DNA from: a virus
Virus record (IMG/VR): IMGVR_UViG_3300025669_000046
Location: 1 to 50,826 of that record
DNA length: 50,826 nucleotides
Direction: 5' to 3' (one strand)
Under the pieces are notes generated by a model. The model saw only the letters and a program-made list of their open reading frames with translations. It was not told the origin of the DNA and made no database searches. The position numbers were made by a program, and so were the translations under genes. Shown here piece after piece: positions 3,588 through 46,054 of this stretch (positions are counted from its first letter, which is position 1; the number at the start of each line of letters is the position of its first letter).

Positions 3588-5060
3588 TTATGGTACTACT
3601 GCACAACGCAGCCCGAGGCCGGTGCTCAAGGTCGAAGGACCATCGTTCAGGAGCAAGGCCAAAGACCCAGCATAAGAACCAGAGCCCCAGGAACCACTCC
3701 GCAGGAACCCACGCACTGTCGTTGATGCACTTGATCTATTACTATTGGTGTATATTCTACCCACACCATTGCTTGAGTTGTAATTCCCACGCATAAACAA
3801 ATCATTCCTACTCAAAGTAGTGTTACCTAAGTCAGTTTCATCTATATATTTTACATCACTATCAGCCTGGTTGTATCCAAACCAATTAAACCCAGCATTA
3901 TTCTCAGTACCATCATCATTGAACCCATCAGGCTGGTCTTTGCTTTGGATTGTATCACTGCACCAATTCCATACATTCCCTGCAAAGTCCCAAATGCACT
4001 GACCATTACTCAAAAATAAAGTACGTCTTTGGTATCCTGAGCTCTGACCAGTTCCTGAGTATCCATCATTATCATCCGTGCTCGCTGCTAGACTGTTTGC
4101 TGGAGTTCCGTCATTGTGCCCACTATAAATATAACCAGTTCCCACTGTTCCTGAGCTCCAGTTAGACTTGACATTTTCTATGTTCCTGGCAATGGACATC
4201 CATTGTGTGTTTGTAATTAATTGAACAGTGCAAGTTGCAAGGTCTGAGTCCAGTGCTCTAAAGCTATCTTGAAGTGCTGCACACTCTGCTATGCTCGCAG
4301 TTTGGGTTATGTTCACCCAGGGAGTTCCGTCTGCCCTGCTCTCTGCCTCATAAGCTGAGTCATAAGCTATATTCCCATCAGCAATACCCTTAATCTTCAT
4401 ATCATACTTAGACACAAAGAAACCCTTAGCGCCTGTTATGTAATCCGCTGGGACATACACAAATCCTTTATCTGCCATTTTCCGCATTATATGCTCTGAG
4501 GTTCTGCCTCTGTACTTTCTTTTGTGGTACATCGCCTCTACTTCACCAGGAGTCAGTGTGCCTTGATATATCTCAACTAAGTCCATTGTGCCTAGAAATT
4601 CATCTGAATTAGAAAATCTTGAACCAATTAATGTTTTATTGGCACCAGTTCCTTCTATTAAAGTTATTCCAGTTATAATTATTTCATTATTAACTCCTGC
4701 TACTGTAGTAGTAGTTGCAACACCATTAACATAAGCAGTCCCACTTTGAGCACTTAAATTTCCAGTAGTTACATCAAATCTAACAAAACCAACTCCATCA
4801 ACATTAGTCCCTTCACAGGTAAATAAATATCTATAACCTGCAAAACTCGTAGGATTACATCTAATCCTCACACTATAAGTACCATTCAAATCAAGGTCAT
4901 AATTTATCTTAGAGCTTGTACCATTAAATGTTCCCTTTCCATTACTGAAGTCTACATCGGTTGGTACACCATTATTTATTTTTCTTGTTATTTGTTCTGA
5001 TTCAAAGGTTTCCTTAAAAATAAGAGAACTACTTATACCATAACGTGATTCTTTAGTCAT
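3588..5060 (-). CDS. LamG + formylglycine-generating-enzyme/C-type-lectin-fold receptor-binding protein (likely DGR target)
   Basis: 490 residues from the ATG at 5060; GAGGG lies 9 nt upstream, so the upstream TTG is not preferred. Residues about 10-170 form a LamG-like unit ('NGKGTFNGTSSKINYDLDLN', 'LVEIYQGTLTPGEVEAMYH'). Residues 185-490 carry the FGE-sulfatase/C-type-lectin fold: 'GFVYVPADYITG', 'FFVSKYDMKIKG', 'LITNTQWMSIARNIE', 'CIWDFAGNVWNWCSD' and a C-terminal 'GLGLRCAVVP' matching the family's 'GFRCA'. In viruses this fold is the usual target of diversity-generating retroelements, where the last ~40 codons vary to change host binding. Here the last ~120 nt change sharply in composition (see 3600-3716). 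No reverse transcriptase or template repeat is visible in this window. The first 8 nt overlap the end of a homing-endonuclease fragment. Confidence 0.8.
   Translation of the reverse strand: MTKESRYGISSSLIFKETFESEQITRKINNGVPTDVDFSNGKGTFNGTSSKINYDLDLNGTYSVRIRCNPTSFAGYRYLFTCEGTNVDGVGFVRFDVTTGNLSAQSGTAYVNGVATTTTVAGVNNEIIITGITLIEGTGANKTLIGSRFSNSDEFLGTMDLVEIYQGTLTPGEVEAMYHKRKYRGRTSEHIMRKMADKGFVYVPADYITGAKGFFVSKYDMKIKGIADGNIAYDSAYEAESRADGTPWVNITQTASIAECAALQDSFRALDSDLATCTVQLITNTQWMSIARNIENVKSNWSSGTVGTGYIYSGHNDGTPANSLAASTDDNDGYSGTGQSSGYQRRTLFLSNGQCIWDFAGNVWNWCSDTIQSKDQPDGFNDDGTENNAGFNWFGYNQADSDVKYIDETDLGNTTLSRNDLFMRGNYNSSNGVGRIYTNSNRSSASTTVRGFLRSGSWGSGSYAGSLALLLNDGPSTLSTGLGLRCAVVP
3600..3716 (-). other. 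Candidate DGR variable region (adenine-depleted 3' end of lectin-fold gene)
   Basis: On the coding strand these 117 nt hold 9 A, 36 T and 72 G+C by my count (about 62% GC, under 8% A). The surrounding gene and whole window are strongly AT-rich. The encoded segment (VRGFLRSGSWGSG... to ...GLRCA) aligns with the usual variable region of C-type-lectin DGR targets, whose template would typically read 'RGGSWNNG-NAG-FALNLNNAP-N-NTNIGFRCA'. Adenine-directed mutagenesis removes A from variable regions, which would produce exactly this skew. Just downstream of the stop, 'ATCGGTTATCGGCTATCGG' (minus strand, about 3536-3556) is a short heptad-type repeat. The retroelement assignment is inference. Confidence 0.6.
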
Positions 5061-5241
5061 ATTTATTACCCTCAAATATATTATAAATCTTACTAATATG
5101 TTCTTTAAATTCTTTAGTCATATTACCACAAATACATTTACATAACCATTTATTACTACCATTATTAGTTTTACCATTTAATTCAATAACCGTTAAATCA
5201 CCAAATTGTTTTCCAGTTAAATCATGTGCTTTTCTTGGCAT
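5053..5241 (-). pseudogene. Truncated homing-endonuclease N-terminal domain
   Basis: 62 residues: 'DLTGKQFGDLTVIELNGK' and 'WLCKCICGNMTKEF'. This is the N-terminal DNA-binding motif ('DLTGQ-FGRLTV-E ... WLC-C-CGN') that precedes HNH or AP2 domains in many phage homing endonucleases. The usual continuation (a 'SGNTKSCGC' Cys pair and the nuclease) is missing; the frame stops inside the ribosome binding region of the lectin-fold gene. It therefore looks like a degraded endonuclease, not a working gene, although expression as a short peptide cannot be excluded. Confidence 0.65.
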
Positions 5242-9385: not shown

Positions 9386-9724
9386 TTACTTTTTTACTTT
9401 TTCTTCTGATTTAAGTGCAATATTCTTCTTAACTTCTTTTTTTAATGGTTCTTTCTTTACTTCTTCTTTAACTTCTTCTTTAACCTCATTCTTCAATTCT
9501 TCTTTAATTTCTTTCTTTATTTCTTCTTTAATGTCTTCTTTCTTTTTAATTAAAATACCTTGCTTAACTAAGCTTTTTAGTTCTATGCTTTTATTATAAA
9601 AATCATCTTTAATCTCTACATACTCAGGTTGTTTTTGTTTAATCCAATCCCTGAAAAAAGACTCACCATTTACTGTTGTTAAAAATGTGTTACTATAATT
9701 CTCATTCAATTTTAAATTTACCAT
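9386..9724 (-). CDS. Small protein with long charged (KE-rich) helix
   Basis: 112 residues from ATG at 9724 (AGGTG about 9 nt upstream). The N-terminal 50 residues look like a small domain ('GESFFRDWIKQKQPEYVEIK'), followed by about 55 residues of alternating Lys/Glu ('KEEIKKEIKEELKNEVKEEV') that should form a stable single alpha helix. The KE repeat is shared in style with the 79-residue protein near 16.9 kb and with the scaffold region of the protease gene. It could be a capsid-associated or assembly protein; no family recognised. Confidence 0.55.
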   Translation of the reverse strand: MVNLKLNENYSNTFLTTVNGESFFRDWIKQKQPEYVEIKDDFYNKSIELKSLVKQGILIKKKEDIKEEIKKEIKEELKNEVKEEVKEEVKKEPLKKEVKKNIALKSEEKVKK

Positions 9725-9764
9725 GTGTATATTCACCTAATTCCCTAATCCTTTTATGCATTCT

Positions 9765-11712: not shown

Positions 11713-12744
11713 CTAACTTGTAATTTTTGCGATTGCATAAGGTCTTATGATTGCAAGAACTTCTGAAATTAAGGCAAGAATTTCTGTGTCTGGTGAACCT
11801 GGTAGTCTACCTTCGAAGAATTCGTGCTCAGCTTCTTTACAAAGCATTCCAGCATTCTTAGAATCTAATACTAATGCATATGCACCTGTTAATAATGGTG
11901 TTTCCCAAATTGTACAATCTAAAACTCTCATTGGTGATAGAATACCCATCTCTGATTTTTGAACTCCAGAGTTTGCGTTCCCAGGGAACATAGATTTTTG
12001 GAATGATTCGTCTAACACAATGTCATTGTAATATGTTGCACTTACAACGAAAAAGTTTGGATAGAAATTGTACTTAACTCCATTGCTTGCTGCTGCATCT
12101 CTAATTGCAAGTCTTGCTGCTAAGAAGTTTGCATAACTTAATCCACCAGTTACTGTAGTTCCAGCACCAGTTGCTAGACCATTTACGATGTTAGAAATTC
12201 TCTTTCTTACTAATGCATCCTTTGCATTTCCAAGTATATAATTCATTAATGAACCCATACCTCTCTTTCTAACTTCCCAAGTAATCTTTGTTGATGCAAG
12301 ATATTTCTTTGGTGTAACTGTGATTGGATCCACACCCTCTTCGAAGTAGCCTACTACGGATCCTTCTCCGATCTCTAATGCGATTGTTGGTTCTCCTCTT
12401 GGTATTTGGTATGCACCATATCCTGAGTTCTTAATCATATCATCATTGATATATACTAATGCCTCAGCCATTTGAAGTTCCTTATCACTAATCATTGCTG
12501 TTTGTATGATTTGGTGTAATAGAGTAGTATATGCACCTGTATTATTTGCTACAGTTTGTCCATCAGATTCTTTTAAATTAAGACTCTCTTTCAGGATTTT
12601 ACCATACTTAGGGTCATTACTTAAAGCTTCCTTGAATAAACCATTAATATTGCTTGCTAATTCTGTGTTTACAATATCATACTTTGGTGCTACATACTTT
12701 TCTACTTTAAATTTTGTTTTAAAAACATTACTTTTTTCTGTCAT
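11713..12744 (-). CDS. Major capsid protein (HK97 fold)
   Basis: 343 residues. Features of HK97-type capsid proteins with an N-arm: 'ISDKELQMAEALVYINDDM', 'GEPTIALEIGEGSVVGYFEE' followed by a 'TVTPKKYLASTKITWEVRKR' E-loop/P-domain segment, 'GANVVSATYYNDIV'-like P-domain spine ('NFFVVSATYYNDIVLDESFQ'), and a C-terminal 'YALVLDSKNAGMLCKEAEHE' A-domain strand. A strong GGAGGA site precedes the ATG. It follows the protease/scaffold gene by 22 nt, the order expected for HK97-type head modules, and is followed by a hairpin terminator. The N-terminal ~70 residues are polar and could be removed on maturation ('ILKESLNLKES' near residue 50). Confidence 0.85.
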   Translation of the reverse strand: MTEKSNVFKTKFKVEKYVAPKYDIVNTELASNINGLFKEALSNDPKYGKILKESLNLKESDGQTVANNTGAYTTLLHQIIQTAMISDKELQMAEALVYINDDMIKNSGYGAYQIPRGEPTIALEIGEGSVVGYFEEGVDPITVTPKKYLASTKITWEVRKRGMGSLMNYILGNAKDALVRKRISNIVNGLATGAGTTVTGGLSYANFLAARLAIRDAAASNGVKYNFYPNFFVVSATYYNDIVLDESFQKSMFPGNANSGVQKSEMGILSPMRVLDCTIWETPLLTGAYALVLDSKNAGMLCKEAEHEFFEGRLPGSPDTEILALISEVLAIIRPYAIAKITS

Positions 12745-12766: not shown

Positions 12767-14218
12767 TTATATTTTTAGTCTGTCATTTACAAATCCTGCA
12801 AATGCCTCTTTATAAGTCATTTCAGGCTTTGTTGTTATTGTCTCTTTCAAGCTTTGATTCAATTTCGAACTCTCTGTTTTTGGTGGGATTGGGGCATTAA
12901 CTTTGTCCTTATCCTTATCCTCTTTATCCTTATCCTCGTCAGCTTCTTTCTTAGTATCTTTTGTAGAATCTTCTTTACTATCTTCTGATTCTTTAATCAC
13001 TTTATCTTCAACAGTTTTTTCTTCAGGAACCACCTTATCATCTGCATCCTCAGACTCAGTCAATTTCTTTTCTTTGTCTTTGTCTTTGTCTTTGTCTTCT
13101 TCTACAGCTTCTTTTTTATCTTTATCTAAATCCTTGTCATCATCTAGAGCTTCCTTTTTTATGGTCTTGTCCTTTGGAACTTGTTCCTTAGGAACTGGTT
13201 CCTTTGAATCTTCGTCCTTTGGAAGTTTAGTCTTAATCATGTCTAATTCTTCTTTTAAAGATTTATTGTCATCCTTAATTAATTCTAGAGCTTCAACAAT
13301 TTTTGTCATGTCATCATTATATTCTTCTTTCAACACATTATCTTTCTTTTCTGTGTCCTCATTTTCTTTAATGACTTCTTCGTCTTGCTTAGGCTTAGTA
13401 ACTTTATCAGGATCTTGGTATGTTTCTTTCTTTATTTTTTTGTCCATTATTTCATCCTCCATATTGGAATCGTTACTGCTATCTTTTTTCATTATTGTCG
13501 GAGCTATTGCTCCAGATACATTCGCTGTGTTGATGTCTTCTTTCTTATTCTCATTACTATAATAAGCATTATCTTTTTTCAAATGATCAATCACTAACTG
13601 CTTGATCGCGGTATCCTTCAATTCTGGGTGCTCTCCTTTCTCGATCTTGAATCCCATATTGAACTCGTCATTGTAATCCTCAATAAATTTATTATTTTTA
13701 TAAGCCTCTGCAATTAAAGTTTCAATTGAAGTTTGGTCATACCCAGCGACATTAACTCCACTTGCTTCAAGAATATCACTAATATATGCTCTTTCATATT
13801 CCTTACCATCTTTAAATTCAGGACTTACTTCTGAAGCATTCAATTGAATACTTACTTTATTTATAAATCCTTCTACTACATCATTATAATATTGTGAACG
13901 TGGATTCAATTTGGATTTATAATACCACCCCGCGATATTTTCACCCTCATCATCTTCTTGAAGCCAAGAATCTACAAACTTACCAACTGGTCTATCAGTA
14001 GTTTCTAAGTCATGATTAAATAACATTGGTTTCCCAATCAATTCTTTATAATGATCTTTAATTGAACCCCAATCGTATAAAACTTTATTTCTTGAAACCA
14101 CATCCTTTGGAAGTAGTAATCCTTGAATATATGTATCTTTATTTTTATTTTCTTTTAATAAAGAAAATGTATCATTAGAAATATACCAACCTTTAATATT
14201 CGTTAATCCATTCACCAT
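12767..14218 (-). CDS. Prohead protease fused to a charged scaffold domain
   Basis: 483 residues. Residues 1-190 resemble a phage prohead serine protease: 'YIQGLLLPKDVVSRNKVLYD', 'KPMLFNHDLETTDRPVGKFV' with candidate catalytic His69, and 'INKVSIQLNASEV' with candidate Ser123. Residues about 220-455 are extremely rich in Lys/Glu/Asp ('DKDLDKDKKEAVEEDKDKDK'), as expected of an internal scaffold that is removed after assembly. The last 17 residues (MTYKEAFAGFVNDRLKI) return to ordinary composition and resemble the capsid-targeting-like motif of the 583-residue protein. It is directly upstream of the major capsid gene. GGTGA lies before the ATG. Assignment of the catalytic residues is by pattern only. 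Confidence 0.75.
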   Translation of the reverse strand: MVNGLTNIKGWYISNDTFSLLKENKNKDTYIQGLLLPKDVVSRNKVLYDWGSIKDHYKELIGKPMLFNHDLETTDRPVGKFVDSWLQEDDEGENIAGWYYKSKLNPRSQYYNDVVEGFINKVSIQLNASEVSPEFKDGKEYERAYISDILEASGVNVAGYDQTSIETLIAEAYKNNKFIEDYNDEFNMGFKIEKGEHPELKDTAIKQLVIDHLKKDNAYYSNENKKEDINTANVSGAIAPTIMKKDSSNDSNMEDEIMDKKIKKETYQDPDKVTKPKQDEEVIKENEDTEKKDNVLKEEYNDDMTKIVEALELIKDDNKSLKEELDMIKTKLPKDEDSKEPVPKEQVPKDKTIKKEALDDDKDLDKDKKEAVEEDKDKDKDKEKKLTESEDADDKVVPEEKTVEDKVIKESEDSKEDSTKDTKKEADEDKDKEDKDKDKVNAPIPPKTESSKLNQSLKETITTKPEMTYKEAFAGFVNDRLKI

Positions 14219-14293: not shown

Positions 14294-14560
14294 TTATATT
14301 TTAATCTCATTCTTCGAAGTGCCTATAATCTCGTTATTATTTATATGAATATACATTTTTGTGCTTGTGTCATATATAACTTCTTCATTATTATTCTTTT
14401 TAATAATCCTAATATTTTCTATGAATGATGCATTATTGATTGATTCCTTCTTTATATATTTTCCTAGTAATCTATATATCAAATATGCAATTGCACCGAC
14501 CATGATAGGATTCTTGATCTTCCCACCTAAAAACATTCGAATATCACTCAATAACGCCAT
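14294..14560 (-). CDS. Small membrane-anchored late protein
   Basis: 88 residues. A hydrophobic segment at about residues 17-34 ('NPIMVGAIAYLIYRLLGKYI') is followed by a positively charged patch and a soluble C-terminal part with 'IIKKNNNEEVIYDTSTKMYI'. AAGGAATGAT precedes the ATG. It lies in the head module between two unknown proteins. Possible roles are an internal virion protein or a membrane docking factor; no family recognised. Confidence 0.55.
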   Translation of the reverse strand: MALLSDIRMFLGGKIKNPIMVGAIAYLIYRLLGKYIKKESINNASFIENIRIIKKNNNEEVIYDTSTKMYIHINNNEIIGTSKNEIKI

Positions 14561-14566
14561 GTATTA

Positions 14567-15046
14567 TCATTCCTTTTTATCTTCTTTTTTATAGAACTTC
14601 TTCCAAATTTTTAATGTATTGCTAGAATTCTGAACTGCTTTTAATGACATGGACTTTTCTGGTTCAAGCTTCTTCTTTAATCCCTTGTATGTCTCTTTAA
14701 TAATATTTTTATAATTCTTAATTATATTCTCATGCCCAGCAATTAGTCTATCTAAGTATTCTATTGCGAGTTTAGATTTATTCTTATCATTTATGCTTGC
14801 TAAGAACTCCTCTGATTCCTTCTTTCTTTTATCAATGTTCGCCTTTGCAACCTTCTTTTGATTCTTCGTGTACTGATCAAATGCACTAACAAATTCCTTA
14901 GCTCTGGCATTCAGGTTTGTATTCGATTCCACAATTGCATTCACATTACTCTGTCCGAGTTCCTGGACTAGCACATGCTCAAACACATAGTCCCCTTTTT
15001 TATTCTGACTTATGTTCTTTTCATTCTTTAATACTTTAAGACTCAT
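14567..15046 (-). CDS. Unknown helical head-module protein
   Basis: 159 residues from ATG 15046; GGAG is 7 nt upstream of this ATG but only 1 nt from the ATG two codons earlier. The protein is largely helical and Lys-rich ('FDQYTKNQKKVAKANIDKRK', 'IIKNYKNIIKETYKGLKKKL'). The segment 'GDYVFEHVLVQELGQSNVNA' is the only part that looks like a folded domain. Its place between the targeting-repeat protein and the scaffold suggests an internal head protein, possibly packaged with DNA given its positive charge. Family not recognised. Confidence 0.55.
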   Translation of the reverse strand: MSLKVLKNEKNISQNKKGDYVFEHVLVQELGQSNVNAIVESNTNLNARAKEFVSAFDQYTKNQKKVAKANIDKRKKESEEFLASINDKNKSKLAIEYLDRLIAGHENIIKNYKNIIKETYKGLKKKLEPEKSMSLKAVQNSSNTLKIWKKFYKKEDKKE

Positions 15047-15070
15047 ATTCATTCTCCTTTATTTCTTAAT

Positions 15071-16822
15071 TTAACTTTTATTTTTATCAATCCATTTAAT
15101 CATATTATCTAATGATTTTGAGGACATTGTATCATTAACAGTTGATGCCCAATATAAATTGTTGTCATCTTTATAAATTCTTATTCCATTATGATTCATT
15201 ACTTCGTCTAGCTTCTCTTCAAGATTGTCTTCTGTATTGTCCTTAATTCCTTCTGTCAGTCTATAATTAATCCCCATGTTCTTAAGATTGCCTAAGAACT
15301 CGTTAATCTCTCTTTTCAATAAACTCTTGTTATCATTGAAATCTATCTTACCATTGTCTTGAAGATTCAATCCGAAGTCGTTACATGTCTGTCCAAGCTT
15401 AGCCTTAAGCTTAGGTATGTTATAAGCCCCAACCAACTGAATCGATGATTCCTTTTTGTTTAAATTGTTCAATCTCTCTTTATAGGATTCTTTTTTTAAG
15501 TTTTTAGGTGGAAAATATAAGATTTCACCATCATTTAAATCTTTTACTTTTATTTCATCATTAGAAATTTTAATAACTTTATATCTATATTTCTTACCCA
15601 TAGGACTAATAACAACATCACCTACTTTATAATCAAACTTTCCAAAATCAAAATATTCTCTCAAATTACTTAATCTCTCTTTGTAGGATTCTAAAGTATA
15701 AGGTGAACTCGTTCTTTTCATTTTATCTTTATAAAAATTAATTATATCAATCAATGTTTGTTTTGATGCTGTTGAATTTTTTAATTTATCTAAAATTTCA
15801 TTATCAGATTTTCCTTGCTTTAACATTGATGCTATAATTTGATCCTCTAAAGCTTCTTTCTTTATAAATTTCTCTTTCAATTTTTGTAATGCTTCTTTTT
15901 TAGTTCCGCACTTCTCGTCATACTCGGATTCATCATTCCATTCTGAATAGAAATAGTTCGCTTCGCTCTTCTCTGCATCAGATAAATCACTGAAGTTCTT
16001 TTTAAACTTCTTCTGTGATACATCGTCAAGTGTTAATACCTCTGTGTAGGATTCTTTTTTCAATTCTGAGTCATAATATTTATCAGTTCTTATTATTCCA
16101 CCAGCTGTTTTATACTCAACCTCAAATGAATCTGATCCAATTTTCTTTTTAATTGTACCAATTCTCTGAGGAAAATCAGAACCAACCTTTACTTTATCAC
16201 CAACTTCTAATGCCTCTTTGTAGGATTCTTTTTTTGATTTTATTATTTCAAAATCTTTTATTTGTCTATCTTTTGCAAATCTCTTTACTTCTTCTTCAGA
16301 ATCAAAAGGACCTCTTTGAAAAGTTACACCATCATCTTTATATTTTATTTTAAAACCGCTTGGTAAATAAGCTTCTCTGAAGTTATTCAATTTCTCTCTG
16401 AATGATTCTCCTAAGTAATTGTTCATTCCGTCGTTAATTATATACTCATCAACTGATGGGTACTTAGTTAGCATCTTCTTCTTAACCTCTATCTTAGGCA
16501 AGCCACTCTGGAATAATTCGTTTATCTCTTGCTGTATGTCACCCATAATAGATTCTTTTATGCCTTTTAATCTCTCTTTGTAATTCTCTAATTTCACACC
16601 AAAATTTTTTACTAACTTAGTTACTTCATTTGGATATAACAATTTCAAATTCTTTTTAATTACTATACTTTGTTCACTATTATCTTTATCTTTATATTTA
16701 TTATATAAATTCATGCCTAACAATAAATCATTCTTACTTACTTGTTTCATAATTATATTGATCTGATCATCATTTAATTTATTATTACTCATAAATTCTT
16801 TTAATCTCTCTTTGTAATTCAC
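15071..16822 (-). CDS. Modular head protein with seven capsid-targeting-like repeats
   Basis: 583 residues, GTG start at 16822 with AAGGTG about 6 nt upstream (the GTG overlaps the previous stop). Seven copies of a short motif, [E][S/N][Y/F]xE[x]L, occur: NYKERLKEF at the N-terminus, NYKERLKGIKES, ESFREKLNNFRE, ESYKEALEVG, ESYTEVLTLDD, ESYKERLSNLRE and ESYKERLNNLNKKES. They separate unlike small domains, two of which look like SH3/KOW barrels ('VGDKVKVGSDFPQRIGTIKK' and 'YKVGDVVISPMGKKYRYKVI'). The N-terminal motif resembles the phage T4 capsid-targeting sequence (MKTYQEFIAE) that carries internal proteins into the prohead and is then cut off by the prohead protease. I infer a polyprotein-like internal head protein processed by the protease encoded at 12767-14218. 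It is Lys-rich and lies between portal and scaffold. Confidence 0.6.
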   Translation of the reverse strand: MNYKERLKEFMSNNKLNDDQINIIMKQVSKNDLLLGMNLYNKYKDKDNSEQSIVIKKNLKLLYPNEVTKLVKNFGVKLENYKERLKGIKESIMGDIQQEINELFQSGLPKIEVKKKMLTKYPSVDEYIINDGMNNYLGESFREKLNNFREAYLPSGFKIKYKDDGVTFQRGPFDSEEEVKRFAKDRQIKDFEIIKSKKESYKEALEVGDKVKVGSDFPQRIGTIKKKIGSDSFEVEYKTAGGIIRTDKYYDSELKKESYTEVLTLDDVSQKKFKKNFSDLSDAEKSEANYFYSEWNDESEYDEKCGTKKEALQKLKEKFIKKEALEDQIIASMLKQGKSDNEILDKLKNSTASKQTLIDIINFYKDKMKRTSSPYTLESYKERLSNLREYFDFGKFDYKVGDVVISPMGKKYRYKVIKISNDEIKVKDLNDGEILYFPPKNLKKESYKERLNNLNKKESSIQLVGAYNIPKLKAKLGQTCNDFGLNLQDNGKIDFNDNKSLLKREINEFLGNLKNMGINYRLTEGIKDNTEDNLEEKLDEVMNHNGIRIYKDDNNLYWASTVNDTMSSKSLDNMIKWIDKNKS

Positions 16823-17058
16823 ATTTTCACCTTTTTAAATAAATCCTTTAACTTAGGCTTAGTATTAATCTTATCTTTCTTAACTTCTTTCTTGACTTCT
16901 TTCTTAACTTCTTTCTTAACTTCTTTCTTAACTTCTTTCTTTTTAGGCTTTAAGCTCTCTATGTGCTCCGACCATTTTTTTTGGAAATCATCAGGTCCTA
17001 AGCCTATAATAATTTTGCCTGTTAATTGGCATTTCTCTTTTATGTATTCATTATCCAT
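16819..17058 (-). CDS. Small protein with KKEV tandem repeat
   Basis: 79 residues. The N-terminal 38 residues ('CQLTGKIIIGLGPDDFQKKW') look like a small folded unit; the next 25 are five exact or near-exact KKEV tetrads encoded by a 12-bp tandem DNA repeat (about 16876-16940). Such a repeat forms a highly charged helix and its copy number is prone to change by slippage. The gene overlaps the start of the modular head protein by 4 nt (GTGA). Position in the head module suggests an assembly role; function unknown. Confidence 0.55.
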   Translation of the reverse strand: MDNEYIKEKCQLTGKIIIGLGPDDFQKKWSEHIESLKPKKKEVKKEVKKEVKKEVKKEVKKDKINTKPKLKDLFKKVKM

Positions 17059-17084: not shown

Positions 17085-17897
17085 TTATATATTTATTTGA
17101 TTATAATATGATTCTTTAAATATATTTAAAAAATCAATTTTATTCATTTTATTAATTTGATGTTCCCATAATCTTAAAATTTTATATTCTGCATTTTTCA
17201 ATTCAATATTTCTAAATTTATCATTTTTTGTACCTAATGGATAATTATGCCAATAATTTCCATCACATTCAATTATCATATTTAAATCTTGTATATAAAT
17301 ATCACATTGATATTTATGTTCTATATTTAATATTGGTTTATGCTTAATAAATGGAATATTTAATTCTTTTAAAATAATTTGAATCTTTTTTTCTATTGAA
17401 GTTTCCCATGTATGTTTTTGTAATAATCTTGCTTTTTTTATTTTTCTTCTTGCTTCTTTCGTAACAATATGACCTTCTAAATTATTTGCATATTTATTTA
17501 CTCGTAAATCTGTTTCTTTTGTTAATCCCTTATTCCAAGTAATATTTCCTTTATGAGAATCACTTAATTTTTTTCTTGTTTCTTTAGAACATATTTTTCC
17601 TTTATTTGCAATACCAATTTTTTTCTTTTGCTCCTCTGACATTTTTTGTCCTTTATTTGGTGAAACTCTACCTTTTAATGATTTATGTACCTTTTCTTCA
17701 TAAGATTTTACATCTTTATAAAATAATTTAGAACTTTTACCTTTCCAAATACATGATCTTGATAATCCTAAATCTTTATTTTTTAAATTAAATTTGTTTG
17801 TATATTCTTTAATAGTCATATTATGTTTTTTTAAATGCTTATGCGTAATACTTTTAAAACATTTCCCACAAATTTTACAATATAATTTAATATCCAT
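17085..17897 (-). CDS. Free-standing homing endonuclease, zinc finger + NUMOD3 + DUF559-like nuclease
   Basis: 270 residues. An N-terminal C2H2-like unit ('LYCKICGKCFKSITHKHLKK' with a following His) precedes NUMOD3 repeats ('GRVSPNKGQKMSEEQKKKIG', 'KICSKETRKKLSDSHKG', 'ITWNKGLTKETD'). The C-terminal 100 residues form the nuclease: 'YQCDIYIQDLNMIIECDGNY', 'WHN' and 'ILRLWEHQI', the same signature as the endonuclease at 6862-7572. It stands 2 nt downstream of the portal gene, a common insertion place for such elements, and has no structural function. Confidence 0.85.
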   Translation of the reverse strand: MDIKLYCKICGKCFKSITHKHLKKHNMTIKEYTNKFNLKNKDLGLSRSCIWKGKSSKLFYKDVKSYEEKVHKSLKGRVSPNKGQKMSEEQKKKIGIANKGKICSKETRKKLSDSHKGNITWNKGLTKETDLRVNKYANNLEGHIVTKEARRKIKKARLLQKHTWETSIEKKIQIILKELNIPFIKHKPILNIEHKYQCDIYIQDLNMIIECDGNYWHNYPLGTKNDKFRNIELKNAEYKILRLWEHQINKMNKIDFLNIFKESYYNQINI

Positions 17898-17899
17898 AA

Positions 17900-19708
17900 T
17901 TATTTCTTCTTTTTTATTTTAGTTTCTTCAACAAGTTCCCCAGTACAAAGGCAACGATTAGCCCAACCCATCCACTCAATTTTTTTATCTACCATATCTT
18001 TAATTTTATACATTTTACCATGCTTATTTATATGATATATTCTTGGATTTTCTGATTTATTATGTCTCCAAATTACATCTCTATATCCATCATTATATGA
18101 TTTTTTTAACCAATTATACATTTTCTTTGCATGCACGTTCGGTGTGGAGTCCTTGACGTCCTTGTTCTTTTCCTCTAGGACTTTTTCTTGAAACGCAGCA
18201 GCAGGAGATTCTTCTTTCACCTCTGATTGATCAGACTTAGTCTGTTGTTCTTCATTCTCTTCAATTTTATTCTTCTCAGAATTTTTAATATATGGATTAT
18301 CAAATTGCTTGTATTCATTCTCATCCATACCATACTTCTGTTGTAGCAATGCATTCCATTGAGCTTGGAATAGATCTCCATTCGTAATAATCTCGTATCC
18401 TAGTCCCTTAAGTAACTGATTCAGTGTAATTGCATTGTTGTTATACAACTGTATTATTGATTCTTGTGTGTCCTTAGAATCATCTAATGTAACCTCACCG
18501 AACTCGAAGGTTGCATCCTTTAGCTTAGGATCTTGCTTCATTACGTGCTTTAGAATATTTTTATTAAGTAACTTAATATATTTATTTCTCTTATTCTCTA
18601 GACTTAATTCGAAAGGTATCTTCGCATTCGTGCTCGATGCATATGTGACTGTATCACTCCACGGGGTCATGAATGCTGGAGTTAATCCTGAACTTACTTC
18701 CTTTCTATTATACTCTAATCCATTCGGCATCTCGTTGAACTGAGTTGGTGTGATCTCTGTGCTACCAATTTTCTTGTTTATAATTACATGCTCCTCATCC
18801 TCTGGGGAGTTTAAAATGTCAGTTATAGTCTTTAGCTCTGTTGGATCAGGTCGGTCATTCTCGTCACCGACACTGAATATCTTCTTTCCGAATGCCATGA
18901 ACCGACTCGCGATCGCGTAATTCTTAAGTATCTGTGTGATGATCTCACTCGAATTAATTGTGGAGGCTAGATAGCTTCGACCATAATAACCATATCTTGA
19001 TAATCCGATCTTCATATGTATCAAGTCATCCTCTTTCAAGCCGACACCATAAACAGTCTCCTGCCAAGCAATACCATTTTTGACATAACTAATTAAATAC
19101 TGCTTAAGAACCATGTCACCATACTTTCTAAAAATATATGGAACTTGATAAATCCAGAACTCGTTTTCTTTATTCGCGACCTGGGCGAGATTATAATACA
19201 CCCTAGAAGAATCTGGTGAGACCTTAAAGTCGTTCATGTACTTTATACCACCTGTAATTGTGTCCCATACTGGTTCGATCCAGCTATTCCCACAGACCTC
19301 GCATTGAGTTATTATATTTTGAACTGATTCTGTTACATGGTCCCTTTGCTCGAGCCATTTACCAAACCAATCATTTGTATACTTATCTTTACTCGTAATC
19401 TTAATCTCGTTTCCTGTGATGAACAACACAATCTGATTCACACCAGAGTTTATATTCGGGATGTCCTCATAATTCTCTAAATTCCTCTGAATCTCATAAT
19501 GAGGTGTTCTCAAGGAATTTTTAAATAAAGTAGTTCTAAATGTATATGCACCAAGATCTGAAACAGTAAAGTTCTTTTCCTTTAAATTCTTCTCGATCTC
19601 GTCCACTCTATATGCTTTAGAATAAGCCCTGTTACTAGACTCCTTACTAATAGGCTTAATATTCTCGGTTCTAATACTATTATCTCTAAATAATTCTTTA
19701 ATTCTCAT
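17900..19708 (-). CDS. Portal protein with C-terminal MuF-like extension
   Basis: 602 residues. Residues about 60-440 match portal proteins: 'NINSGVNQIVLFITGNEIKI', 'ITQCEVCGNSWIEPVWD', 'DDLIHMKIGLSRYGYYGRSY' and 'LNSPEDEEHVIINKKIGS', then 'SGLTPAFMTPWSDTVTYASS'. The portal forms the dodecameric DNA gate and terminase dock. After an acidic linker, residues 520-602 ('HAKKMYNWLKKSYNDGYRDV', 'IWRHNKSENPRIYHINKHGK', 'MGWANRCLCTGELV') resemble the C-terminal part of SPP1 gp7/MuF head-morphogenesis proteins ('WRH...RP-H...G----NCRCT'). Fusion of the two is uncommon but known. Upstream are two small genes and the terminase; downstream an inserted endonuclease. Confidence 0.85.
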   Translation of the reverse strand: MRIKELFRDNSIRTENIKPISKESSNRAYSKAYRVDEIEKNLKEKNFTVSDLGAYTFRTTLFKNSLRTPHYEIQRNLENYEDIPNINSGVNQIVLFITGNEIKITSKDKYTNDWFGKWLEQRDHVTESVQNIITQCEVCGNSWIEPVWDTITGGIKYMNDFKVSPDSSRVYYNLAQVANKENEFWIYQVPYIFRKYGDMVLKQYLISYVKNGIAWQETVYGVGLKEDDLIHMKIGLSRYGYYGRSYLASTINSSEIITQILKNYAIASRFMAFGKKIFSVGDENDRPDPTELKTITDILNSPEDEEHVIINKKIGSTEITPTQFNEMPNGLEYNRKEVSSGLTPAFMTPWSDTVTYASSTNAKIPFELSLENKRNKYIKLLNKNILKHVMKQDPKLKDATFEFGEVTLDDSKDTQESIIQLYNNNAITLNQLLKGLGYEIITNGDLFQAQWNALLQQKYGMDENEYKQFDNPYIKNSEKNKIEENEEQQTKSDQSEVKEESPAAAFQEKVLEEKNKDVKDSTPNVHAKKMYNWLKKSYNDGYRDVIWRHNKSENPRIYHINKHGKMYKIKDMVDKKIEWMGWANRCLCTGELVEETKIKKKK

Positions 19709-20551: not shown

Positions 20552-23356
20552 TTAAAACAAATTGTTCATTTTCGCCTTTGATACGAGTTTATACATCTTC
20601 AACTTCTCTTCGATTGTAATCTCTTTATTCTTAATATCTACATCTTTCTTGCTTTCTTCAATCCTTGCCTCTCTAGATAACTGATTCCCGATCAATATAC
20701 CAGACCCTGACATCAGGCTGTTTAGATTCTTAGGCAATAATGCATGAGCATTAGATATTGTAGTGTCTCCATGCGCCATGTCATCAGTCAAATCCGATTC
20801 GACCTTCTCGAAGTTATAATCATACTGCCAACCACTGAAGTGCATTAACTGCACACTATCCCGAAGATAAGTCACTTTCTTATTCATTTGCTTTTCGAGT
20901 TGGTTTGTATGCAGATATTCCTTAATCCCGACTGATTGTTTTCTATTTATCTTAATTCTATTCCCACGAACCACACGCACATGATGAGGGAACAACTTCT
21001 TTAAGTAATTAGACAACTGCACTCCTAGTCCATTTCCATCAATGTTCATCATTTCCAGACCGAGTGGCATGAAATGCTCAGACAAGTCCTGACAGACATC
21101 CTGCATGTAAGTCAAGTCCACACCTATTTTGTAATATAACCCCTCTTGGTTATAATTTATGTCATCGTCATTGAACACAGAAATAGAAAACATATCATTC
21201 GAGTACGCGGGATCGATGCCAATGTGCCATTTGCCTTGCTTATTCGGCCATTGGGATTTATCTAGACTGAATCGATCCTCGCTATTCAAAAAGAAGTTCT
21301 TATTATTATTTAATAAATTATCACGAATGAATTGTATGTCATAAAGCTTGTCGGTCTCGTCCACAAGCATTGCCATGTACTCTTCCTTGAACCGATTCAG
21401 ATTCATTCTTCGTCTTTTTTCGAGCTCAACAAGAGTAAGCCAAGGCACTATAGGGACAAGATCTTGCTTTGTTAGATCTTCATTCAGATTCACCTTCTTC
21501 GGATCCAATGCTGGCCACTTTCGTATTATAAACCCAGAATCGAAGCCTGTGTTGTTAAGCATCTCTATATTCTCTAACCAAAGATTGAAGCTCGTGAACC
21601 TACCTTTCCTTGTAGTCCCATATGTAAGTTGCAATGCCTTTTTCCCGATGTTCTCTCCGGATATAGTAGCACCTCTGGATGCGTCCTGCATTGCGATGTC
21701 TATGTTCTGGAACTCAATCTCGAAGTTACAATTATGTGAGAGTAACTTCATGCCACTAACTAAATAATTATGATTATTTTCTACTTCAAAATTATATACT
21801 ACTCGCCTTTCATTCTTTATAACAATATCTTTAATTTTATATATTTTATAATTATTTTTATTTATTTTTATTTCTTTATAATCATTATAATCTTTTGACA
21901 ATTTATACTTCATTGAAGGAATAATATATGGTGATATAATTTTACTTAACTTTAATGCATTTTTTTTATTGAATTTTATAAATGCTTTATTGCATCTTTT
22001 ATCTTTTAATAAAACAACATCAATATCATATTTATTTTTAAACCAATTCTTAATCAATATATTTTCTGCATATGAAAATGAATGAGTTGCTAATGTTGCT
22101 CCCCATATAACCCTACAACCATCATCCATAAACCAATATGCTAATGATATGTCTGTTAATTTATTTAAATAATTACTAGAAATAGTCTTTTTATTCTTTA
22201 TATATAATTTATTATATACATCTTTATATTCATTACTAATTTTTGAATATGCCTTTATAACATTACCACCAAAGGATGTCTTTTTTACTTTTTCTTTTTT
22301 TAAATTGAATATATCCACAATATGATCTAAATATTTCATTTGCTTTATTGAATGGCATGTTGAAAATATTGCAGACTTATATTTATTATATAATGAAATA
22401 TTTCCATCACCTAATAAAACACCATACAATATTTCTAATTGTATCTTATTTAATTTATATGAATTCTTATTTGTAAATGATATTAAATTATCATTTACTT
22501 TAAATTCTGAAATTGGTTTTATTTTAAATGTATCATCATAAAATGGATGAGTATCAGTGCACTTTATTGAATAACCTTGATTATGCATTTTAACATAATA
22601 AACATTACCATTATATGTTCTTTTATTTTTATGTACTATTTCCTTAAATTCTACTTTATTATTATTTAAGTTATAACTTGCTAATTTATAATTATCTATA
22701 TTTTTATAAATACCCGAGCATACTACTACTCCTTTATTGGTTACTAATTTTACATTACCTAACAAACATTCGTCATTAAATCCATAATTAATTCTTAGTC
22801 CTCTGATGTTCTCCGAGGATCTCGAGCTCGATGGATACCCAGTGATTGTCACATCCCTATCCGGGATCGTGATCTCATGTGCAGTAAATCTCACGAGCTT
22901 ATTATTAAATGGCCAATAAATCACAGACCCATCGTCTTGTGTGTATGTTAATGGTGTCATTTTCTCGATTATTTCTTTCATCTCTTTACTAATAAGCTCC
23001 ATGACTTTTTTATCATTGATTCTAACTATTGGAGCGATCTGATCTTTAAATTCATAAGTATTAGTACAAAATCTAATTACACCATCTGTGGTTAGTGATG
23101 TATTTCTAGACTTAATTATTACTTCAGAAAGAGCATTATATTGCTTTATCACTAAATCATCTTTATGAAACTCGGCTTGATGATTAGTTAGTTTAATTGG
23201 TCCCCATGTACCATCTGGGTATTTTACTTTAAAAACAGACTCTATCATTTTCAGATAGACTTCTTCTTTTTTTGTTACTTCCGGTGCAGGATACCAGCTC
23301 GGATAAACCGATTGCCATATATGATAATCACTAGGACTATCATTCACGCTTGGCAT
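20552..23356 (-). CDS. terL: Large terminase subunit, interrupted by an intein
   Basis: 934-residue precursor; 588 residues remain after removal of the intein (residues 197-542). ATPase part: a Walker A-like 'IIKSRNTSLTT' at about 80-90 (no classical GKT/S) and Walker B 'YGFNDE' at 191-196. The coupling region reads 'LTYGTTRKGRFTSFNLW'. The RNase H-like nuclease has 'HIGIDPAYSND' (D715), 'MMNIDGNGLGVQLS' (D773) and 'SDLTDDMAHGDTTIS' (D858/D859), so all three acidic positions are present. The protein packages DNA through the portal and cuts it. The gene is first in the late block, behind the promoter at 23426-23449, and its product needs protein splicing to restore the ATPase site. Confidence 0.9.
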   Translation of the reverse strand: MPSVNDSPSDYHIWQSVYPSWYPAPEVTKKEEVYLKMIESVFKVKYPDGTWGPIKLTNHQAEFHKDDLVIKQYNALSEVIIKSRNTSLTTDGVIRFCTNTYEFKDQIAPIVRINDKKVMELISKEMKEIIEKMTPLTYTQDDGSVIYWPFNNKLVRFTAHEITIPDRDVTITGYPSSSRSSENIRGLRINYGFNDECLLGNVKLVTNKGVVVCSGIYKNIDNYKLASYNLNNNKVEFKEIVHKNKRTYNGNVYYVKMHNQGYSIKCTDTHPFYDDTFKIKPISEFKVNDNLISFTNKNSYKLNKIQLEILYGVLLGDGNISLYNKYKSAIFSTCHSIKQMKYLDHIVDIFNLKKEKVKKTSFGGNVIKAYSKISNEYKDVYNKLYIKNKKTISSNYLNKLTDISLAYWFMDDGCRVIWGATLATHSFSYAENILIKNWFKNKYDIDVVLLKDKRCNKAFIKFNKKNALKLSKIISPYIIPSMKYKLSKDYNDYKEIKINKNNYKIYKIKDIVIKNERRVVYNFEVENNHNYLVSGMKLLSHNCNFEIEFQNIDIAMQDASRGATISGENIGKKALQLTYGTTRKGRFTSFNLWLENIEMLNNTGFDSGFIIRKWPALDPKKVNLNEDLTKQDLVPIVPWLTLVELEKRRRMNLNRFKEEYMAMLVDETDKLYDIQFIRDNLLNNNKNFFLNSEDRFSLDKSQWPNKQGKWHIGIDPAYSNDMFSISVFNDDDINYNQEGLYYKIGVDLTYMQDVCQDLSEHFMPLGLEMMNIDGNGLGVQLSNYLKKLFPHHVRVVRGNRIKINRKQSVGIKEYLHTNQLEKQMNKKVTYLRDSVQLMHFSGWQYDYNFEKVESDLTDDMAHGDTTISNAHALLPKNLNSLMSGSGILIGNQLSREARIEESKKDVDIKNKEITIEEKLKMYKLVSKAKMNNLF
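21731..22768 (-). mobile_element. Intein with LAGLIDADG homing endonuclease inside the terminase
   Basis: 346 residues within the terminase reading frame, inserted exactly after Walker B Asp-Glu. The N-terminal residue is Cys ('CLLGNVKLVTNKGVVV'), splicing block B is 'TDTHPFY', and the C-terminal block is 'HNYLVSGMKLLSHN' followed by Cys+1, so all splicing residues (C1, B-block T/H, penultimate H, terminal N, C+1) are present. The endonuclease has two LAGLIDADG-type helices ('LEILYGVLLGDGNIS' and 'SLAYWFMDDGCRV'), both with an acidic residue, so it may still be active. Terminase ATPase motifs are known intein insertion points. Confidence 0.9.
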
Positions 23357-23481: not shown

Positions 23482-23553
23482 AGCCCCTGAACGGACTCGA
23501 ACCGCTAACAATTTCCTTACAAGGGAAGCACTCTACCATTGAGCTACAAGGGC
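23482..23553 (-). tRNA. tRNA-Thr (anticodon UGU)
   Basis: 72 nt cloverleaf: acceptor GCCCTTG/CAGGGGC, D stem GCTC/GAGT, anticodon stem-loop CTTCC-CTTGTAA-GGAAA (anticodon TGT; the outermost pair is C-A mismatched), T arm AGCGG-TTCGAGT-CCGTT. The discriminator is U and no CCA is encoded, which fits archaeal tRNA-Thr. It decodes ACA, a codon used often in this AT-rich genome. Viral tRNAs usually compensate codon bias or survive host tRNA cleavage; tRNA genes are also common integration sites. Confidence 0.9.
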
Positions 23554-40025: not shown

Positions 40026-41642
40026 ATGAATTTAAATTTGAATAACATTGCATGGTCAGAAAAATACAGACCGAAGAATGTCGATGCTGTGGTTTCGGAT
40101 AGTAAGCAGAAGATAAAGAAATACCTAGAGAACCCTGAGAGCATCGAGATAAATAAAATATATTGTATGGATTGTATTGATGGCATGAAGCAGCTAGAAG
40201 CTAATAGTGTAGACTCAATAGTAACTGATCCACCCTATGAATTAGGTTTCATGGGTAAGTCTTGGGATGGAACAGGAATTGCATTTAAACCAGAAGTTTG
40301 GAAACAAGCTCTACGAGTATTAAAACCAGGAGGACATCTTTTAGGTTTTGGTGGAACTAGGACTTATCACCGTATGGCCTGTGCAATTGAGGATGCTGGG
40401 TTTGAGATAAGAGACCAGATACAATGGATTTATTCTACTGGATTCCCTAAGTCACTGAATATTGGAAAAGCTATTGATAAAGTTAGTAAAAGATTAAATT
40501 TATTCACACCATTTGCTAGGTACTTAAAAGAGCAAAGACTAAAAAAAGGTTTTGTGATAACTGATGTTTCAAAGCATTTTATGAGCAAAACTGGGGGTGT
40601 GACTGGTTGTGTTAGTAATTGGGAATTAGGATATAGTACTCCAACTAAGACACAATTTATAATTCTAAAGCAATTATTAGACCTAGAAGATACTTTTGAT
40701 GACTTGATAAATAGGGTTGAAGCAGAAAGAAAAGTAATTGGAGAACAACATAGATCTGCTGGGAATGATGTAAATATACCATTTTCTGCTTGTCATACAA
40801 ATAAAAATAATGGTTGGTTTAATATTACAGCCCCATCCACAGACCAGGCTAAGAAGTATGATGGTTGGGGTACAAATTTAAAACCTGCCAATGAACCAAT
40901 TTGTGTAGCGAGGAAGCCTTTAGAGGAAAAGACTGTTGCTGCTAATGTTCTAAAATATGGTACTGGTGGTATTAACATCGATGACTGCAGGATTGGAACT
41001 GATGAAAATATAGAATTAGGCAGAAATAATAGAAAGGAATGTATTTCTAATTCATTTGGTCGAAAATTACTGGGTATAGATAGGAGTGGATTAAATCAAG
41101 GTCGTTTTCCTTCTAATGTGATTCTTGATGGTTCAGAAGAAGTTACTAATTTATTTCCTAATAGTAAATCAACTGGTAGTGATGGATCTAAATTTAATAA
41201 TTCTTGTTTTAAAGGATTAGAAAAAGATGTTATTAAAAAAGATGGACTTGGTTTTGGTGATGATGGTTCAGCTTCTCGTTTCTTTTACTGTGCAAAGGCA
41301 AGTAAGTCTGAGAGGAATAAAGGGCTTGAGGGATTTGATGATGTAAAAGGTGGTTCAATGGAAGGTGGAAATGATAAAAGAAATGGGTTAAATAAACCAC
41401 AATTGAAATTAACAAAAAATATTCATCCTACTATAAAACCAGTTAAGTTAATAGAATATTTAATCAGGCTTGTGACTCCAAAGGGTGGGGTTGTTTTAGA
41501 CCCTTTCATGGGTAGTGGCACGACTGGAATGGCTGCTAAGGCTCAGGGGTTCAATTACATTGGGTTTGACATGACTAAAGAATACTGTGAAATAGCAGAA
41601 GCCAGAATTAAGAGTGTAGATCACCAAATGAAATTATTTTAA
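40026..41642 (+). CDS. DNA methyltransferase fused to a clamp-loader (RFC-like) N-terminus
   Basis: 538 residues. Residues 9-40 read 'AWSEKYRPKNVDAVVSDSKQ' and 'KIKKYLENPES', the hallmark N-terminus of RFC/T4 gp44 clamp-loader small subunits ('WVEKYRPK-LDD-V'), yet no AAA+ domain follows. At about 44 a complete DNA methyltransferase begins: 'IYCMDCIDGMKQLEANSVDS', DPPY at 68-71 ('TDPPYELGFMGKSWDG'), and a C-terminal 'GVVLDPFMGSGTTGMAAKAQ'. The DPPY-before-FMGSGTT order is that of beta-class N6-adenine/N4-cytosine enzymes. A helix-turn-helix-like insertion lies at about 155-240 ('ARYLKEQRLKKGFVITDVSK', 'VSNWELGYSTPTKTQFIILK'). Probably modifies viral DNA against restriction. Confidence 0.8.
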   Translation: MNLNLNNIAWSEKYRPKNVDAVVSDSKQKIKKYLENPESIEINKIYCMDCIDGMKQLEANSVDSIVTDPPYELGFMGKSWDGTGIAFKPEVWKQALRVLKPGGHLLGFGGTRTYHRMACAIEDAGFEIRDQIQWIYSTGFPKSLNIGKAIDKVSKRLNLFTPFARYLKEQRLKKGFVITDVSKHFMSKTGGVTGCVSNWELGYSTPTKTQFIILKQLLDLEDTFDDLINRVEAERKVIGEQHRSAGNDVNIPFSACHTNKNNGWFNITAPSTDQAKKYDGWGTNLKPANEPICVARKPLEEKTVAANVLKYGTGGINIDDCRIGTDENIELGRNNRKECISNSFGRKLLGIDRSGLNQGRFPSNVILDGSEEVTNLFPNSKSTGSDGSKFNNSCFKGLEKDVIKKDGLGFGDDGSASRFFYCAKASKSERNKGLEGFDDVKGGSMEGGNDKRNGLNKPQLKLTKNIHPTIKPVKLIEYLIRLVTPKGGVVLDPFMGSGTTGMAAKAQGFNYIGFDMTKEYCEIAEARIKSVDHQMKLF

Positions 41643-44806: not shown

Positions 44807-46054
44807 ATGATTGATATAAATAGTATGATACAACAGGTATTACAAAGCGAGATTCTAAGTGGTGCATTATTTATTAGCGTTTTCATGGGATTAATATATT
44901 CATTAAAAGGATTACCCCTTAAATTCTGGAATTGGATAAAGAAATATATATATTATGAAGTTTATATATATGAAACTGATAATTTGTTTGTATATTTTGA
45001 GAAATTCTTAAATAAGAATTACAATAAAAAATATAGAAAAGTTGAGGCAGTTACAGAATTTAATAAATTAGACACAGATATAGGTTATGATAAAGCACCC
45101 GAATCAGACTCGAATATAAATAAAAAACAAAAAAAGAAAAATGTGTTTATGAAGCAATATCAAATGATATTCACAATTAAGTATAATAAAAAATATTATA
45201 TTATAAATAAAGGTCGTGAGAAATTCGAGAATACAAACAATTTAAAAAATGCGTACATGAATCATTATAACATAAAAACTTTATTTTATAATAAAAGGTA
45301 TATAAATAAGTTATTGAATGAGTTAGTCGAAAAGAATATTAAAAAAAAAGTGACAAACACAATTTATGCAAACAATTCTGATTATTGGATTAGAGCTTGT
45401 GAGAAGAATCTTAGGAGTCTAAAAACAGTTGTGTTAAACAATAAAATAAAGAATGAAGTTATTAATGCATTAAAGAAATTTAACTCGAATAAGTCATGGT
45501 ACAAAAAGCGTGGGATTCCTTATAAACTAGGAATACTATTGCATGGTCCACCAGGGAATGGAAAGACGTCATTGATTCAAGCAATAGCGAATGAATTTAA
45601 AAAAGACATTTATTATCTAAATCTAGGAAACACAAAGGACGATTATTTAGCTAGATTGTTTAGGTGCATTAATGAAAATAGTATAATTATAATTGAGGAC
45701 ATTGATGCATTATTCAAGTCAAAAAGAGAAATGAATAATAAGGATTTAACATTCAGTGGGTTTATTAATGTCCTAGATGGTCTGATGTCCTCAGAGAATG
45801 TAGTATCGATCTTCACAACAAATAAAAAATTGAGCTTAGACGAGGCTCTAATGCGACCAGGCAGGATCGATTTTAAGATTGAGATCCCGAATCCGACAAT
45901 TAATGAAATTAAAGAATATTATAAATTATTTTTTAATACAAATATTAAAATTAAAAAATTAATTAAGAATATTAGCATGGCAGAAGTACAGGATATATTC
46001 CTAAAAAATTTAGAAAATAAAGATAGAATAAATAAGTTATTAGAAGGAAAATGA
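44807..46054 (+). CDS. BCS1-like membrane-anchored AAA+ ATPase
   Basis: 415 residues. A single hydrophobic segment at about 17-33 ('LSGALFISVFMGLIYSL') is followed by a BCS1-type middle domain (about 45-225) and a AAA+ module: 'YKLGILLHGPPGNGKTSLIQ' (K253), Walker B 'SIIIIEDIDALF' (E297, D298), 'GFINVLDGLMSSENVVSIFT', sensor 'TTNKKLSLDEALMRPGRIDF' with the arginine-finger region, and 'KIEIPNPTINEIKEYYKLFF'. Mitochondrial BCS1 moves a folded protein across a membrane; homologues in prokaryotes and phages are mostly of unknown role. Here it could remodel membrane or virion proteins. The stop overlaps the next ATG. Confidence 0.8.
   Translation: MIDINSMIQQVLQSEILSGALFISVFMGLIYSLKGLPLKFWNWIKKYIYYEVYIYETDNLFVYFEKFLNKNYNKKYRKVEAVTEFNKLDTDIGYDKAPESDSNINKKQKKKNVFMKQYQMIFTIKYNKKYYIINKGREKFENTNNLKNAYMNHYNIKTLFYNKRYINKLLNELVEKNIKKKVTNTIYANNSDYWIRACEKNLRSLKTVVLNNKIKNEVINALKKFNSNKSWYKKRGIPYKLGILLHGPPGNGKTSLIQAIANEFKKDIYYLNLGNTKDDYLARLFRCINENSIIIIEDIDALFKSKREMNNKDLTFSGFINVLDGLMSSENVVSIFTTNKKLSLDEALMRPGRIDFKIEIPNPTINEIKEYYKLFFNTNIKIKKLIKNISMAEVQDIFLKNLENKDRINKLLEGK

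Follow-up and report, generated by a model that had tools for sequence, protein, structure and literature searches.

In the 50,826-nucleotide record IMGVR_UViG_3300025669_000046 of IMG/VR, which comes from a tailed virus and is analysed over its whole length and referred to below as the window, the reading frame at 15071–16822 (− strand) codes for a protein of 583 residues in which seven copies of one short motif stand between mutually unrelated segments. On the basis of this motif and of the gene position, we lean, by a modest degree, towards a modular prohead core or cargo protein of polyprotein-like build, whose independent modules would be joined by core-binding helix tags lying between protease sites, freed by cutting, and exchangeable via the linker DNA.

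Motif copies and modules

The reading frame is real, with a GTG start at 16822 and a GGTGA Shine-Dalgarno-like stretch just 5' of it. The motif [SNM][YF][KRT]E[RKAV]L occurs at residues 2, 80, 140, 200, 258, 379 and 446, where composition-preserving shuffles of the protein give an expectation of 0.0048 copies and a maximum of one in 20,000 shuffles, which confirms the sevenfold recurrence claimed in an earlier note on this DNA. That note had also described a leading Glu, which holds for all six internal copies, of the form E-[SN]-[YF]-x-E-x-L with Glu directly before the motif, but not for the N-terminal copy, which reads M-NYKERL. All copies lie on the − strand (arrows mark candidate cuts): copy 1 is the N-terminus itself (MNYKERLKEFMS, 16787–16822), followed by copy 2 (E↓NYKERLKGIKE↓SI, 16547–16588), copy 3 (E↓SFREKLNNFRE↓AY, 16367–16408), copy 4 (KKE↓SYKEAL, 16199–16228), copy 5 (KKE↓SYTEVL, 16025–16054), copy 6 (E↓SYKERLSNLRE↓YF, 15650–15691) and copy 7 (KKE↓SYKERLNNLNKKE↓S, 15446–15490). 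In copies 2, 3 and 6, the motif extends to a further Glu, within [LFI][KR]E. Two looser copies at 15839–15901 (−), KKEALQKL at residue 308 and KKEALED at residue 321 (KKE↓ALQKL and KKE↓ALEDQ), may split the longest inter-motif interval.

An unbiased repeat scan of 609 ORFs of at least 250 residues, taken from about 120 viral loci, ranked this protein first, with seven copies and dissimilar flanks, and no other ORF within 1.35 Mb held at least two copies of the loose motif. The sole other clear copy in the window is the C-terminus of the protease/scaffold ORF at 12767–14218, which ends on EMTYKEAFAGFVNDRLKI and the stop codon, TYKEAF (12800–12817) being the motif that closes its tail.

Compared with one another, the inter-repeat segments gave no significant similarity, in agreement with the earlier claim that each repeat is followed by a different small domain. 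The whole protein gave no significant match in searches of Pfam, PHROG, phage and PDB sequences, and single modules returned, at best, weak matches to unknown families. In the Pfam searches of the analysis as a whole, matches to chalcone synthase and phosphomannomutase were rejected as weak or implausible. With regard to structure, the model of the whole protein, computed without an alignment, is poor (pLDDT 44, pTM 0.21), and several motif copies appear in it as short helices. All modules being read from the − strand, module 1 (16592–16786) is modelled as all helical and module 2 (16415–16546) as helical, module 3 (16235–16366) as a beta-beta-alpha-beta domain, and module 4 (16061–16207) as an SH3-like five-strand barrel. 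Module 5b (15698–15853) is predicted as a helical domain (pLDDT 76–79), module 6 (15497–15649) is probably SH3-like (YKVGDVVISP...) at low model confidence, and the C-terminal module or modules 7 occupy 15074–15445. The fragment of residues 137–260, modelled on its own, gave two domains (pLDDT ~80 for module 3 and ~75 for the second, 71–81 within the barrel; pTM 0.38), with pLDDT below 50 for fragment residues 61–67, which hold the start of motif copy 4. In this model, modules 3 and 4 are two beads on a string, separately folded, with the motif in a low-confidence linker; the structure prediction that the earlier note had suggested thus speaks against one continuous fold for the modelled part. 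Fold searches with the barrel returned SH3/Tudor/PWWP-like matches, all weak, and the SH3-like and small alpha/beta modules perhaps bind nucleic acid or a host protein.

Position in the head gene cluster

The 583-residue gene belongs to a cluster in the order portal, homing endonuclease, 79-residue protein, 583-residue protein, 161-residue protein, 88-residue protein, protease/scaffold and capsid, which matches the T4 order 20-67-68-21-22-23. Its place between the portal and the protease/scaffold/capsid genes is that of the prohead core (T4 gp67/gp68). From this T4-like order and the motif common to the scaffold C-terminus we infer the head or core location that the earlier note had proposed.

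The genes of the cluster are on the − strand. The portal gene (17900–19708) is recognised by its match to the portal of the relative described below and by gene order. The product of 16819–17058, in the T4 gp67 slot, is a lysine/glutamate-repeat protein of 79 residues, while the 161-residue protein (14567–15052) occupies a core-gene slot and holds the sites KKE↓S and IKE↓T. The 88-residue product (14294–14560) is a one-helix membrane protein with KKE↓S behind the helix, and is possibly a prohead membrane anchor cut on maturation. The ORF at 12767–14218 combines a Peptidase_S78-like N-terminus with a charged scaffold-like tail. It matched Pfam S78 at E=0.003, below the cutoff, and the PHROG head maturation protease at 0.006, and has candidate His and Ser residues in LFNHD and KVSIQL; these weak profile matches and 33% identity to the same-place protein of the relative suggest that it is the prohead protease. 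The major capsid protein of HK97 fold is encoded at 11713–12744.

Other features were noticed in and around the cluster. KEVKKE-type repeats are present in the two small proteins flanking it (9386–9736 and 16819–17058, −). The terminase large subunit gene (20552–23356, −) contains an intein with a LAGLIDADG endonuclease right behind the Walker-B-like NDE, and a single tRNA gene, tRNA-Thr(UGU), adjoins it at 23482–23553 (−), its CCA end not being encoded.

Candidate cleavage sites and fate of the chain

According to the passages cited here, prohead proteases cut after Glu, in the contexts L/I-x-E (T4), S/A-x-E (phiKZ) and A-x-E↓S (SPN3US) (PMC9026906, PMC10052503). In the 583-residue protein, a P1-type Glu stands before six of the six internal motif copies; KKE precedes only three of them, the others having KLE, LGE and TLE. 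For a T4-like cut after [LI]xE at the tag end, copy 1 offers LKE as a candidate, and copies 2, 3 and 6 have IKE, FRE and LRE in that place; no site of this type was found right behind copies 4 and 5. The proposal of a T4-like LxE directly after the tag in every copy was dropped, since only some copies carry it.

The tripeptide KE[STA] was observed 8 times in the 583-residue protein against 1.0 expected, 7 times in the protease/scaffold against 1.4, and 4 times in the capsid against 0.4, three of these four lying in the N-arm as KE↓[AS] at residues 39, 53 and 59. With the 583-residue protein left out, KE was followed by S, T or A in 14 of 29 cases in the other four head proteins and in 14 of 99 elsewhere (p 2.6e-4), a test that is only semi-independent because the motif had been noticed beforehand, having been read off the repeats first and tried on the other proteins afterwards. 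The same head-versus-elsewhere test found no significant difference for EK, KK, EE and KD. In a T4 control, counts of [LI]xE[AGSTN] picked out the known substrates gp22, gp68, gp21 and gp23, with gp18, gp19, gp20 and lysozyme flat. In the relative, the KE↓[STA] enrichment is weaker (7/25 vs 4/48, p 0.03). The KE[STA] count of the homing endonuclease (17085–17897) was set aside as probably arising from its own SxET/TxET repeats. Glu at P1 and an enrichment of KE↓[STA] confined to head substrates make cutting by the protease at the repeats likely. The earlier note's reading of a packed chain cut by the protease at 12767–14218 is thus borne out in part, while ejection of the pieces into the host would be a further conjecture of that note.

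In the mechanism that we propose, small independent modules would be made as one chain, an internal prohead (core) protein, in which a helix-forming tag, E↓[SN][YF]KERLxxLxE, would join the modules and, by analogy with the T4 capsid-targeting sequence, bind the scaffold or core. The tags would draw the chain into the prohead, probably through the scaffold. At maturation, the head protease would cut beside the tags, given that T4/phiKZ-type prohead proteases cleave behind Glu, and the modules would thus be set loose within the head and the tags stripped off; in T4, as stated in the passage cited, removal of the capsid-targeting sequence (CTS) releases internal proteins from the core (PMC9026906).

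Alternatively, the seven helices could be scaffold- or capsid-binding sites that keep the core together, in a multivalent core protein that stays whole or is degraded, like T4 gp22, gp67 and gp68. We judge this unlikely, yet a serious contender, as it would agree with the gp67/gp68 slot of the gene, with the recurrence of the motif at the scaffold C-terminus, and with the T4 core proteins, which in the passage cited are cut to several fragments, most of them lost from the head (PMC9026906). Folded, mutually unrelated modules would however be unexpected for a disposable core, and Glu occupies P1 in every internal copy.

Kinship of the copies and a distant relative

Among the motif copies, the same residue is written with an identical codon in 76 of 101 pairs, against 47.8 +/- 6.7 expected (p ~0.0006), and this signal is driven by the rare codons TCC and TAC. 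Ser is encoded by TCC in four of five cases (4.7% of Ser codons in the virus), Tyr by TAC in five of six (18.6% of Tyr codons in the virus), and Glu by GAG in seven of seven; the DNA of copy 6, for example, reads GAATCCTACAAAGAGAGATTA. Because rare codons are common to them, the copies are kin at the DNA level; most likely they arose by copying of one another's DNA, as opposed to convergent protein drift.

GTDB contigs were scanned for the degenerate DNA of ESYKERL, which yielded 13 loci. Twelve of these, like 33 viral loci from motif DNA scans, were unrelated single matches. The thirteenth, RZYO01000188.1 (L137), placed in a Spirochaetia MAG, opens inside an ORF that carries KESYKERLNRLKETF and a small module, and continues with a protease (33% identity), scaffold, capsid (29%) and small head genes in the order of the window. 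Its tag is a copy of ESYKERLNRLKE with the rare codons identical to those of the window, and the tag DNA, GAATCCTACAAAGAGAGATTG, is identical at synonymous sites to window copies, which has a probability of ~0.0016 when the codon usage of the contig and the pattern searched for are taken into account; such identity was absent from all other pattern-matched loci. The contig begins almost exactly at the tag, as expected of an assembly broken at a repeat.

Another contig of the same MAG (L143) carries a terminase (34% identity), a portal, a homologue of the homing endonuclease of the window and a homologue of the 88-residue membrane protein, in which HKE↓S stands at the aligned position. Past its portal, the contig contains the first part of a cargo-like ORF, in which FLKE↓S, an SH3-like stretch and ESFKEL can be read. 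We infer that the two contigs adjoin and that the cargo gene is split across both; the gene order is common to the window and the relative, in the latter across the two contigs. In both viruses, the homologous homing endonuclease genes lie directly behind the portal gene and just upstream of the cargo region (window 17085–17897, −; L143 13145–14002), and [KH]KE↓SI is conserved just behind the helix of the membrane protein (L143 14314–14781).

A search of 395 genomes of the relative's class with the terminase profile and the tag DNA returned only the same MAG, plus three DNA matches with two mismatches, at about control level. A capsid alignment scan found no further relatives, and nothing was returned by single-protein searches with capsid, terminase, portal and cargo against viral contigs, against phage records, or with cargo against GTDB contigs. 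The sampled head regions of the marine T4-like HTVC008M and Syn9 held no repeated tag, the repeats there being in tail-type proteins.

Since the tag-coding DNA is conserved, recombination between one tag copy and another could duplicate modules, delete them or swap them. A bolder version, which we regard as possible but on balance doubtful, sees the gene as a head-packaged polyprotein cassette array, in which the tag DNA GAATCCTACAAAGAGAGATT would be at once core-targeting signal, protease site and recombination joint, and viruses too distant to have much else in common would trade, add or drop modules; this would resemble the trading of gene cassettes in integrons, but inside one reading frame. 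Recombination might also have done no more than fuse formerly separate tagged proteins at their tag DNA, leaving the inner tags as uncut relics. The copying of rare-codon tag DNA within the gene, and its identity in a virus whose terminase is 34% identical, would suit such fusions; relics should decay, yet all six internal copies retain E-[SN]-[YF]-x-E-x-L and the relative retains one copy, and we hold this origin to be improbable. Less credible still is that the motif, in a modular virion protein of DNA-binding or other function, is a structural linker or helix cap with no part in targeting or cleavage: S/N-x-x-E is a classical helix capping box and the modules have weak SH3-like matches, but the leading Glu, the match at the scaffold C-terminus, the head-restricted KE↓[STA] enrichment and the codon conservation would be left unexplained.

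Comparison with known head proteins

The tagged cargo chain favoured here would resemble the T4 internal proteins IPI, IPII and IPIII in the pattern of its short tag (there [ST]-Y-x-E, within the CTS), in the Glu at the cut, here a predicted one, in the unrelated mature parts behind a common tag and in the small folded cargo. It differs from them in that each T4 protein has one N-terminal tag and its own gene, whereas a single chain has seven tags here, every internal one preceded by Glu and several followed by it. The link to the T4 targeting sequence drawn by the earlier note stands as a common pattern, [ST]-Y-x-E plus a hydrophobic residue, but not as demonstrated homology, the protein having given no match to any phage record at E<=1 and none in the whole-protein PHROG search. 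Set against the T4 tag (X04567), the N-terminus MNYKERLKEF has N instead of T/S, and its hydrophobic residue comes one position further on, a resemblance of pattern only; the similarity spans few residues and might reflect just a helix N-cap. A 57-residue IPII query matched T4 records at 100%, and later comparisons were made on the database sequence.

The T4 core proteins gp67, gp68 and gp22 share the gene slot and cleavage-site enrichment by the same kind of test, and are cut into several fragments, as is proposed here. They differ in being small or highly charged and in losing most of their pieces from the head, in place of folded modules between repeated tags. The head proteins of phiKZ and SPN3US, as presented in the passages cited above, are likewise cut after Glu (S/A-x-E, A-x-E↓S), with several sites per propeptide and packaged ejection proteins; there, the cuts remove propeptides, and those passages describe no repeated tag between unrelated modules. 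In phage P1, an N-terminal capsid-targeting signal puts DarB into the head and is able to bring a reporter along (PMC9024508), but this is a single signal without a module chain. Multiple cutting as such has precedents in T4 gp22, gp67 and gp68, which are known to yield several pieces; the novelty lies in a unit of tag and site that recurs between unrelated modules.

Host and further loci

The earlier note had called this an archaeal virus, a label that no test supported: the only relative sits in a bacterial (Spirochaetia) MAG, where viral contigs can be misbinned, and the replication genes of the window, with a family A polymerase and a weak RFC-like N-terminus, do not settle the host. A DNA-polymerase alignment led to two UViGs (3300005915_002008 and 3300022890_001509; replication half only, no host given), which share more than 99.9% identity with stretches of the window's right half; the same virus is therefore present in further metagenomes. 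A distant virus from that alignment was discarded, its head genes being of another kind.

The RFC-like stretch consists of the first 40 residues of a DNA methylase ORF (40026–41642, +), which resemble the start of the replication factor C small subunit (E ~0.07), as would be seen after insertion of a methylase into a clamp-loader gene. The product of 3588–5075 (−) combines Laminin-G and FGE-sulfatase (C-type-lectin-like) domains and its C-terminus resembles targets of diversity-generating retroelements; in the window, a reverse transcriptase was not noticed. A BCS1-like AAA+ ATPase, of a kind otherwise found mostly in jumbo phages, is encoded at 44807–46054 (+).

Implications for internal head proteins

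The internal proteins that tailed viruses are known to carry into the host have individual tags. If the proposed mechanism is true, one gene stringing modules behind tag copies at protease sites would provide compact packing, a fixed ratio of the modules and their swapping in frame. The tag together with the KE↓[STA] rule would offer a sequence test for such cargo in uncultured viruses, and changes in cargo repertoire would become directly testable from metagenome reads.
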